Origin: Promethearchaeota archaeon
GTDB lineage: Archaea; Asgardarchaeota; Lokiarchaeia; Sigyniarchaeales; SOKP01
Reading direction: 5' to 3'
DNA: 39,800 nt
Assembly: GCA_019894715.1 (NCBI GenBank)
Contig: JAGXOA010000065.1
Span: forward strand, 1 to 39,800
Within the stretch, counting starts at the first letter, position 1. Each line of letters begins with the position of its first letter. The notes under the pieces were generated by a model. The model was not told the DNA's origin and did not search any database. It worked only from the letters and a program-made list of their open reading frames with translations. Made by a program: the position numbers and the translations under genes. Of the stretch, positions 16,138-39,800 are shown one piece after another.

Positions 16138-17448
16138 ATGCAAAGAAATCTTTTTATCTTTGAATTTATCTCTGGTGGGGGATTTAATAAAAGAATCATA
16201 CCATCCTCACTATTTTGTGAAGGTTTTGGAATGTTAAGATCTATAATTGAGGATTTTAGAAAATTAGATTTTCAAATCACCACCCTGCTGGATATAAGGA
16301 TAAAATACCTGTCATATTTGCTGAATGCTGATTCAATAAATTATATTGATTCTAATATTAATTATATATCCTATTTTAAATCATTGGTAAGAAAGAATAA
16401 TTTTTGTTTTATAATTGCACCTGAATTTTCTAAAATATTAAAAATTTTAACTGAAATAGTAAAGATAAACAAAAAAAAACTTCTTAGCATTGATATTGAA
16501 GGTGTAAATCTTGGGTCTTCTAAATATAAAACATATAAATTCTTCAAAAAAAATAAATTAGAAACACCAGAAACCTTCAAAATACCAATGAAACATAGAA
16601 TTCCAAATAAGGAATTTATTATTAAGAAATTTATAAAATTTAACTCTCCAATAATAATAAAACCTGATGATGGAATTGGAGCGGAATCTATTTTATATTT
16701 TGAAAAAAAAACACAAATAGAAGATATTTTTAAAAATAAATCAAAAATTTTTAATTTAGGAAAAAGATTCCTCCTTCAGAGATACATAGAAGGAAAAGCT
16801 TTGAGTCTATCTCTTATAAGTTATTACTCTGAAGAAAAACGAGAATATAGATCTAAAATATTATCAATAAATTTTCAAAATATTGCTATTTCTAAATTAA
16901 ATGGCAACATAGAATATTTTGGAGGATCTACACCTATTATCAATTACAAAACAGTACATAAAAAAATCTCAGAATTGCTAAAAACAACTAATTTCTCAAA
17001 ATTCCAAGGATTATTTGGAATTGACCTAATTCAGAATGAAAACAAAATATCATTTATTGAGATTAATCCAAGATTAACAACATCTTACTTAGGATTAAGA
17101 AATATATTGAATAAAAATCCTGCAGAATTAATAATAAAAACCAAATTGAATCATATGGTAGAAGGAGCTATAAAAATAGAAAATAACTCATTTTTTTCAA
17201 GATTAGATTTAATTCATAATAAAAACCTTCCCTACAACAAGATTAAAGATGATTTTATTCCTGAATTATTAAAGTTATATCCCGAATTTATAGTTCCTCC
17301 AATCTCACTAAATAATAATCAACTTTCTTGTTTTGTGGTTACAAAAGAGAAATCGTTAGAGAAATCCTTAGATAAATTAAATTTAATAAAAAACTACTTA
17401 ATATCTAAGAATTTTACCATAATAACAAAAGAAAACCCATTTCTTTAG
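16138..17448 (+). CDS. ATP-grasp enzyme, MfnD-like (tyramine-glutamate ligase family)
   Basis: FIFEFISGGGF N-terminus; SPIIIKPDDGIGAESILYF, LLQRYIEGKALSLSLIS, GLFGIDLIQNENKISFIEINPRLTTSYLGLR ATP-grasp motifs. Confidence 0.75.
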   Translation: MQRNLFIFEFISGGGFNKRIIPSSLFCEGFGMLRSIIEDFRKLDFQITTLLDIRIKYLSYLLNADSINYIDSNINYISYFKSLVRKNNFCFIIAPEFSKILKILTEIVKINKKKLLSIDIEGVNLGSSKYKTYKFFKKNKLETPETFKIPMKHRIPNKEFIIKKFIKFNSPIIIKPDDGIGAESILYFEKKTQIEDIFKNKSKIFNLGKRFLLQRYIEGKALSLSLISYYSEEKREYRSKILSINFQNIAISKLNGNIEYFGGSTPIINYKTVHKKISELLKTTNFSKFQGLFGIDLIQNENKISFIEINPRLTTSYLGLRNILNKNPAELIIKTKLNHMVEGAIKIENNSFFSRLDLIHNKNLPYNKIKDDFIPELLKLYPEFIVPPISLNNNQLSCFVVTKEKSLEKSLDKLNLIKNYLISKNFTIITKENPFL

Positions 17449-17478
17449 GAATGAGATGAATTTTAAAAAAAAAATTAA

Positions 17479-17626
17479 TGCAATAATCACTAATCGATAT
17501 CGCACCCTATTCTTAATTAGAGGAAAGCATTAATAATATTAGGGTAGAGAACTATCCTATAATCTCTAAGATTCTTATTGAGATTTCTGGTCTACGAATC
17601 CACTTCCTTTAGGTAGTGATAGTTCA
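17479..17626 (+). ncRNA. Candidate orphan omegaRNA/reRNA-like RNA (copy A) or IS605 right-end relic
   Basis: 148 nt, ~87% identical by eye to 38586-38730 (19 substitutions, one 3-nt gap). Ends CCACTTCCTTTAGGTAGTGATAGTTCA; long-range ATCACTA/TAGTGAT complement; similarity to copy B stops at TAGTTCA. Confidence 0.5.
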
Positions 17627-17662
17627 AAATTATTTAATTTTAAAAAGAAAATAAGGTGAGAA

Positions 17663-18961
17663 CTAGTTTTTTTCTACATTATTCTTTTTATGAGCTATAG
17701 CCCCTATCTTTCCCATAATCCATTCAGGGGTCCCAATACCCTTAAAATATATTGTCCAAACATACATTAAAAAGCCCAATAATCCAACAACTCCAAAATA
17801 AGTAATTACGAAAAACCATGGGGGGAATCCTTCTGTAAATAAATATCCTGTTAAAAACATTATTAAGAAAAGTGATAATGAGACTTTTCCATAGAAAATA
17901 AGCATTCTATTAAATATACCTTTTTTTCCCTTAATATCTATATAATAAATACTAATTGAAATAATTAACAACGCCCATCCTAACAAATAAAATATATTTG
18001 ATATAGTACTTCTAATAAAAAATTCAGGCATTCCAGGAAATTGGAATTGAAGAAAATTCTGGTTATTTGCTATTGTTAACCAATCAATTGTTTCATACAA
18101 ATTAATATCTATTGTTGAGGTTGTATGTAATCTGAAACCAATAATAATTCCTGAAGTAATAAATAATATCCCAGATATGAAAAAAACTTTATATAATCTA
18201 ATTAAAGCATCTTCAGTACCTTGATTCATCATTTTAAATAGATATTCTCCAAAAGTAGTTGAGATAAAACAAATTGAAATCCAAGGTAAAAATGGTAGTT
18301 GCGGTACTGGAGAAGTTATGAAAAAGTTTAACCATAAAAATACAGGATGGGTGTCTATCTCATAAAAGATTATTTCCCTTAATATTGGTCCTATAAGAAT
18401 TATTATAACTCCTATAACGATTCTTACATTTATATTCAATTTTAAAATGAAATATGATGCAATCTGCGTAAATCCCATGAAAAATAAAATATTCCAACCC
18501 CATAAGGTTAAAGGAAATATATTAAATGGAAAGACATCATATGGGGGATTATGTGGAATAGATAGATTGAAAAATGCTCCAATTATCATTATTGCAATTC
18601 CTCGAAATAGTATCTTATTCCGAATTACTTTTTCTGGGATTGTTTCCTTTTTTTTCTTTATGCTAAATACTACTGAAAGAGCTGATAATAATATAAATAA
18701 AGAAGGACCAAATATATCTAAAAAGGCAGTACCAATTCCAAACAAGAATCTCCACTCAGAGTTTAACCAAGCATCTGATAAATGAGATAATATTATTAGA
18801 ATAATAGCAAGCCCCTTAACAAAGTCTATTGAATTTAGTCGTCTCTTCAATTTTGGATTATTATCATTATCTGAGGTAATGCCCTCACTTAAAGATCTAA
18901 GTGATGATACGTCCTTCTCTTCTGATTTAATTTGGTTTTTATCAGTAATAGTATTAGACAT
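17663..18961 (-). CDS. Multi-pass acyltransferase-like membrane protein (acyltransferase-3 / DUF1624 HGSNAT-like)
   Basis: RRLNSIDFVKGLAIILIILSHLSDAWLNSEWRFLFG...FGPSLFILLSALSVVFS with ~10 TM segments. Confidence 0.7.
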   Translation of the reverse strand: MSNTITDKNQIKSEEKDVSSLRSLSEGITSDNDNNPKLKRRLNSIDFVKGLAIILIILSHLSDAWLNSEWRFLFGIGTAFLDIFGPSLFILLSALSVVFSIKKKKETIPEKVIRNKILFRGIAIMIIGAFFNLSIPHNPPYDVFPFNIFPLTLWGWNILFFMGFTQIASYFILKLNINVRIVIGVIIILIGPILREIIFYEIDTHPVFLWLNFFITSPVPQLPFLPWISICFISTTFGEYLFKMMNQGTEDALIRLYKVFFISGILFITSGIIIGFRLHTTSTIDINLYETIDWLTIANNQNFLQFQFPGMPEFFIRSTISNIFYLLGWALLIISISIYYIDIKGKKGIFNRMLIFYGKVSLSLFLIMFLTGYLFTEGFPPWFFVITYFGVVGLLGFLMYVWTIYFKGIGTPEWIMGKIGAIAHKKNNVEKN

Positions 18962-38469: not shown

Positions 38470-38585
38470 TTCTAAGTACCTCTTAAATTATATTAAAAGA
38501 AAACTGGTAAATAAACATCGAAAATTCTTGTATAAACTCTATCTCTATACATACAGAATCTAAAATTTAGTCTTAAAAAGAATAT

Positions 38586-38730
38586 TGCAAAAATCACTAA
38601 TCGATATCACAGCCTATTCTCAATTAGAGCAAAGCATTAATAATATTAGGTTAAAGAACTATCCTGTAGTGTCTAAGATCCTCATTGAGGATTAGGGATT
38701 ACAAATCCACTTCCTTTAGGTAGTAGTTCA
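38586..38730 (+). ncRNA. Candidate orphan omegaRNA/reRNA-like RNA (copy B) or IS605 right-end relic
   Basis: 145 nt homologous to 17479-17626; hairpin ATCCTC-ATT-GAGGAT covaries with copy A; ends CCACTTCCTTTAGGTAGTAGTTCA, then unrelated sequence ATGACGTCGTCTAAAG. Confidence 0.5.
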
Positions 38731-38788
38731 ATGACGTCGTCTAAAGTAAGATTGGAAAATTATTAATTAAAAAAAAAAAGAATTATGA

Positions 38789-39676: not shown

Positions 39677-39800
39677 AGTGAACTACACACGGCCTAAAGA
39701 CCGTGGCTTCCTACGAGTACACAACCGCTTCTACTACGGGTTGGCCTGTTTATCGTAGAAAACCATTCCATCATATTTGGAATGATTCCTCGTTCACTGA
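39677..39800 (-). mobile_element. IS200/IS605 right end: probable tnpB 3' tail (stop at 39694-39696) overlapping an omegaRNA-like structure; continues past the window
   Basis: Reverse strand reads ...SERGIIPNMMEWFSTINRPTRSRSGCVLVGSHGL* then hairpin CACGGTC-TTTA-GGCCGTG and GTGTAGTTCAC. Nested complements CTACGA/TCGTAG, CAACC/GGTTG, CATTCCA/TGGAATG; closing AGTGAAC (39677-39683)/GTTCACT (39792-39798). Confidence 0.65.

Follow-up and report, generated by a model that had tools for sequence, protein, structure and literature searches.

We have found that a short block of DNA between two convergent genes of a Promethearchaeota archaeon, which had been put forward as an orphan omegaRNA-like element with no tnpB beside it, is very probably a gene-less element of the IS200/IS605 group: an IS608-type palindrome-associated transposable element (PATE) that has lost its core, would be mobilised in trans by a TnpA and carries a fossil omegaRNA at its right end. 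The window, a stretch of 39,800 nucleotides (GenBank assembly GCA_019894715.1, contig JAGXOA010000065.1, positions 1 to 39,800 of the forward strand), holds one whole copy (block A, or copy A) and one truncated copy (copy B) of this element, and we refer to the family as MITE-1. We find no support for the idea that block A works as a guide RNA on its own.

Results

A multicopy element inserted into the 3' end of an ATP-grasp gene

The two similar blocks noticed in the original prediction (about 87% identical by that count) do form a repeat pair, 17468-17617 and 38575-38724, with 85% identity over 150 nt and no gaps, and both have the expected hairpin with its CTTTAG loop (at 17607 in block A and 38714 in copy B) and the TAGTTCA that follows (at 17620 and 38724). 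They are, however, not merely a pair but members of a large family. A genome search with a 163-nt block A query gave 41 matches at E<=1 (best non-self match, 3.5e-49), which is far beyond chance; about 15 of these span nearly the whole query, and the rest cover the left ~59 nt only or the right ~90 nt only. When the flanks are added, conservation runs from TTTAC (17413-17417) to TTCAA (17627) and the sequence beyond is unrelated between copies. These sharp boundaries, directly after TTTAC on the left and after TTCAA on the right, are common to about 15 copies, and MITE-1 copies are found on many contigs beside different genes. The homology to copy B had been said to stop after TAGTTCA, in agreement with an alignment that ends at TTCAA, but the 5' limit had been placed too far in: the true start is some 60 nt earlier, at 17418, and a left-end hairpin (17436-17455) had been overlooked. 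The position of the block between two convergent genes (16138-17448, + strand, and 17663-18961, - strand) was seen correctly. The host gene, the insertion site and the two copies are as follows.

16138-17448, + strand: ATP-grasp gene with the insertion in its 3' end (C-terminus ...NFTII changed to ...NFTIITKENPFL)
17413-17417, + strand: TTTAC, insertion target and left cleavage site, part of the host gene and immediately adjacent to the element (conservation starts here)
17418-17627, + strand: whole gene-less element of 210 nt (MITE-1 or PATE copy A), from the alignment boundaries and the empty site in genome G009
38575-38731, + strand: copy B, a MITE-1 truncated at the left and without the left hairpin, from genome matches and flank alignment

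Copy B (84-85% identical to block A) is regarded as truncated because the left-end hairpin is absent. The 210-nt element is too short for a transposase gene, and there is no open reading frame of at least 80 aa inside it.

In G009, another genome of the genus, the ATP-grasp gene (its protein is 66% identical) and the gene convergent with it adjoin without the element. Excising 17418-17627 in silico restores the frame, so that the protein ends ...KNFTII before the stop, compared with ...KDFVIY in G009; with the element present it ends ...KNFTIITKENPFL, the stop being the TAG of the left hairpin loop. No target duplication is seen at this insertion when it is compared with the empty site of G009. 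These observations show that the element moved as one unit of 210 nt, which landed 3' of TTTAC among the final codons of the ATP-grasp gene. We note that the insertion adds TKENPFL to the ATP-grasp C-terminus in place of the original stop.

Ends of the IS608 type

The ends of the element comprise the following parts.

17432-17435, + strand: AAAA, the left guide tetranucleotide of copy A, which immediately precedes the left hairpin (positioned as is GL, AAAG, of IS608; PMC5934647)
17436-17455, + strand: left-end imperfect palindrome CCCATTTC-TTTA-GGAATGAG, with the loop TAG at 17446-17448
17456-17528, + strand: interior of the left-end module, common to MITE-2 up to ~17526, from left-end matches
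17596-17599, + strand: right guide tetranucleotide GAAT, identical to GR of IS608 (PMC5934647)
17600-17619, + strand: right-end imperfect palindrome CCACTTCC-TTTA-GGTAGTGA, from alignment and covariation
17624-17627, + strand: right cleavage site TCAA, identical to CR of IS608 (PMC5934647), where homology ends

The recognition tetranucleotides of IS608 are TTAC (CL), AAAG (GL), GAAT (GR) and TCAA (CR) (PMC5934647), and all four are found in the MITE-1 family, with AAAA for AAAG in copy A. At the left end the guide, which is AAAG in most MITE-1 copies, is followed by the hairpin CCCATTCC-TTTA-GGGATGGG; at the right end GAAT lies directly 5' of CCACTTCC-TTTA-GGTAGTGG, after which comes TAGTTCAA. 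Of the 10 MITE-1 copies whose left end is intact, 8 have TTTAC as the target. Terminal inverted repeats are absent from the element, which has subterminal imperfect palindromes at both ends instead (17436-17455 and 17600-17619). A long-range pairing proposed earlier, between ATCACTA near the 5' end and TAGTGAT near the 3' end, did not survive the alignment of 15 copies: TAGTGAT occurs in A only, not in B, and the usual TAGTGG in its place forms the 3' arm of the hairpin at the right end.

The left end is shared much more widely than MITE-1 itself. A 114-nt left-end query gave at least 40 scored matches in the genome and a 49-nt pattern for this end hit 36 sites (reversed control, 0), which places it on at least 36-40 elements, where two or more different right ends go with it. 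MITE-1 (~215 bp including the target) and MITE-2 (~285 bp, target mostly TTTAT) have the same left end and different right ends, and MITE-3 (~200 bp) is homologous to MITE-1 at its right end and has a left end of another kind. That MITE-1 and MITE-2 share a left end suggests that elements have exchanged their right ends. In the left-end copies, the final base of the guide goes with the final base of the target (G with TTTAC in 10, A with TTTAC in 2, G with TTTAT in 3, A with TTTAT in 18; Fisher p=1.6e-4, an association due partly to common descent of the two element types), which is the covariation expected if base pairing picks the target.

Several further observations concern the family. The 114-nt left end with MITE-1 or MITE-2 right ends is seen in G000 as elements L062-L101. 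There are also single-hairpin elements of ~50 nt, for example TTTACAATATCAAAGCAGAAAGCCACATCCTTTAGGTAGTGGTAGTTCAA, at G000:C286:24915-24947 (L173), at L092 (C48) and upstream of the L009 match (C56), in which the 5' part of the left end is fused to the 3' part of the right end; these resemble the 52-bp terminal-only form included among the PATEs of Haloquadratum (PMC3119063). One MITE-1 copy (L100, G000:C65:53085-53470) is split by a ~385-bp insert with related ends in L172 and L076, for which Rfam gave no match. In its right part the insert is similar to the ends of a further tnpB group (L039-L041 and L057, ...GTCCAGATTTTTTGCAACGG), and it may be a gene-less element of the IS607 type that went in at GG. 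The same right-end terminus as in MITE-1 occurs in a Candidatus Lokiarchaeota MAG (JAUWHC010000389.1); phage and plasmid collections gave no match.

A right end probably inherited from a tnpB element

The right half of the element has three parts that bear on its origin.

17529-17627, + strand: right-end module, with homology to the sequence that follows tnpB remnants on their 3' side (omegaRNA scaffold region), from sequence matches
17542-17557, + strand: scaffold hairpin 1, GGGTAGAGAACTATCC, whose loop GAAC (17549-17552) can pair with GTTC (17622-17625), from covariation across tnpB lineages
17559-17595, + strand: scaffold hairpin 2, of which five pairs are broken in copy A, from the pair count

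The right ~98 nt of block A are homologous to sequence directly 3' of tnpB remnants, which bears out the connection made in the original prediction with IS605 right ends and with the guide RNAs of tnpB. The resemblance in 3' layout that it saw to the tnpB-associated right end at 39677-39800 is confirmed too. The MITE-1 right end lies directly 3' of C-terminal tnpB remnants on contigs C113, C169, C177 and C286, and, in G009 (C132), directly 3' of an open frame for a TnpB C-terminus, which the edge of the contig truncates. It follows that the right half of block A represents the part of a tnpB element that holds the omegaRNA scaffold. A homologue of this right end, more distant, is found 3' of 396-aa TnpBs (L125, L137 and, in this genome, the intact TnpB on C249), and the MITE-2 right end matches the end of elements in other genera that encode intact TnpBs of 425-431 aa (L123, L136). 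TnpB Pfam domains are present in L123 and L125, and other genera have intact tnpB elements whose ends are of this kind. From its position, its fold and the precedent of ISDra2 (PMC8612924), we infer that the right-end region encodes an omegaRNA in this group.

Within the assembly itself (288 contigs, many of which end in tnpB repeats), only decayed remnants of the cognate tnpB were found. The parent of MITE-1 has to be presumed, because no complete element turned up in which an intact tnpB is flanked by this very left end and by the MITE-1 right end. Hits that covered only residues 1-50 of a 295-aa 'TnpB' query were rejected as TnpB, because those residues proved to be an antisense right end. 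One TnpB remnant with a MITE-1-type right end (L042, G000:C169:4268-5152) has IINGNLKGI compared with a VILEDLNIKGM-like motif in other TnpBs, with no glutamate at that place, and its open frame starts with an antisense right-end copy. We also note that the window's contig ends, at 39677-39800, in the right end of an abundant and nearly uniform tnpB family, and that this family breaks the assembly at many contig edges, on 10 or more further contigs (L044, L050, L054-L056 and L058 among them).

The only detectable Y1 transposase in the genome is encoded on C109, by an intact frame with a Pfam Y1_Tnp domain. The left end of that element, TTTACC...CAGAAAG followed by CCACGTCC-TTTA-GGGCGTGG and ATGAAT, has the plan of the MITE left end, with TTTAC, AAAG and a hairpin with a TTTA loop. 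Judging from the similarity of the ends only, we infer that the C109 TnpA may mobilise the MITEs in trans.

A scaffold conserved between tnpB lineages and decaying in MITE-1

We scored a fold consisting of two scaffold hairpins, the terminal hairpin and the GAAC/GUUC loop-to-end pairing on an alignment of 33 right ends. Paired cells made up 84.4%, compared with 78.5% in shuffled and 33-44% in slid controls, scores that are inflated by the relatedness of the sequences, and two-sided changes numbered 50 cells against 19. The contrast to the slid controls is nonetheless large, so the fold was maintained during the divergence of the tnpB lineages. Within MITE-1, pairing equals the shuffled expectation in every helix, and paired sites have diverged by 9.6% and unpaired sites by 8.8%, both comparisons being of limited power with 14 copies; divergence is roughly flat (6-11%) along the whole element. 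Copy A has kept 11 of its 16 scaffold pairs in hairpins 1 and 2. Folded as single sequences, A and B are not clearly better than shuffles (z of -0.74 and -1.59). Rfam at gathering thresholds gave nothing on the window or on related loci, and at E<=5 on the element it gave a mir-16 hit below the cut-off and no omegaRNA family.

Within-family decay and the failure to find any intact, closely related cognate tnpB in the assembly point to a passenger scaffold that decays after insertion. The original prediction had set against itself the prospect of copies decaying neutrally with neither conserved structure nor a fixed 3' boundary. Neutral decay is what we find among MITE-1 copies; the absence of conserved structure holds within that family only, whereas the fold is conserved between tnpB lineages; and the 3' boundary is in fact fixed, which transposition explains.

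These data bear directly on the proposal that block A is a stand-alone guide RNA, in which the right end would be transcribed into an omegaRNA, the downstream flank would be the guide and a TnpB from elsewhere would act in trans, for example by cutting empty sites and so retaining the element where it is. It is favoured by the two-sided changes that separate tnpB lineages, by the several MITE-1 copies that keep all 16 of 16 scaffold pairs (L009, L004, L102 and L012) and by the intact 396-aa TnpB of C249 with its distantly homologous right end. We nevertheless consider it unlikely, given that copy A retains only 11 of the 16 pairs, that pairing within MITE-1 is no better than in shuffled controls, that its paired and unpaired positions have changed to much the same extent, that the cognate tnpB survives in the assembly as decayed remnants only and that the Rfam omegaRNA families have no match. 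Better-preserved MITE-1 copies might conceivably be used in trans on occasion. A broader version, in which the gene-less elements are dispersed guide-RNA loci and rely on a borrowed TnpB of a related kind, for instance that of C249, seems to us equally improbable; if it were true, one nuclease would protect dozens of gene-less transposons, and the joining of one left end to different right ends would amount to a swap of nuclease partners.

Block A had also been considered as a dead right-end relic, left where a full tnpB element decayed on site. This comes much closer than a trans-acting guide in that the right half is indeed the right end of a tnpB element, and decayed tnpB fragments with such ends lie elsewhere in the genome. 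A bare relic is nonetheless very improbable: a complete left end lies only ~110 nt upstream, the same internal junction recurs in about 15 copies, and excision of exactly 210 nt yields the empty site. The shared junction means that the short form itself propagated, which contradicts a bare relic. An unrelated structured non-coding RNA or regulatory element, for which the hairpins and the location between convergent genes might be cited, has next to no likelihood in the face of mobile-element boundaries, an empty site, copies on many contigs and the lack of an Rfam match other than the sub-threshold mir-16 hit.

Discussion

We favour, then, a gene-less, core-deleted IS608-type element. In the sequence of events that we propose, a tnpB element would have shed its core, and its right end would have come together with a left end that many elements share, giving MITE-1; a Y1 transposase (TnpA) would move the element in trans as single-stranded DNA; and the omegaRNA scaffold would be a passenger, inherited from the lost nuclease gene and now decaying in copy A. 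For as long as a cognate TnpB was present, a transcript could in principle have guided it to the empty site of the element (TTTAC and the downstream flank).

Block A is an ordinary kind of element, of the known PATE type, in a little-studied host. The PATEs of Haloquadratum walsbyi are short and gene-less, have near-terminal palindromes like those of IS605 elements, occur in many copies without target duplication and arise by core deletion of IS605-type transposons (PMC3119063). MITE-1 is likewise short, gene-less and multicopy, with near-terminal palindromes and no target duplication, but it belongs to another archaeal lineage, its right end matches the part of tnpB elements that holds the omegaRNA scaffold, and one left end goes here with at least two right ends. 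A PATE-like element of Halanaerobium hydrogeniformans, 271 nt long, consists of a left hairpin, the last 58 nt of tnpB and a complete right end (PMC7290912). MITE-1 resembles it in having a left-end hairpin and a complete right end with no intact gene; the Halanaerobium element is a single copy, whereas there are dozens here, and no tnpB coding sequence is identifiable in MITE-1. A search of the open-licence literature found no paper on such elements in Asgard archaea.

The likeness to IS608 extends to TTAC, AAAG, GAAT and TCAA, to the subterminal imperfect palindromes and to insertion 3' of the target (PMC5934647), but neither tnpA nor tnpB lies inside MITE-1, and the target is TTTAC, or TTTAT for most MITE-2 copies. 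As with the omegaRNA (reRNA) of the ISDra2 TnpB (PMC8612924), the scaffold region is at the right end, the target motif is the insertion-site motif and the putative guide would, by analogy, be the sequence just outside the element. Unlike in ISDra2, there is no tnpB in cis, and the scaffold is decaying in copy A.

Our findings document a large population, numbering dozens, of IS605-derived gene-less elements in a Lokiarchaeota-related genome of the Asgard archaea. They also show that an apparent orphan omegaRNA can be merely the inherited right end of a gene-less element, which is a trap for guide-RNA mining. Lastly, both the single left end with its different right ends and the covariation between guide and target fit, in nature, the base-pairing rule of IS608.
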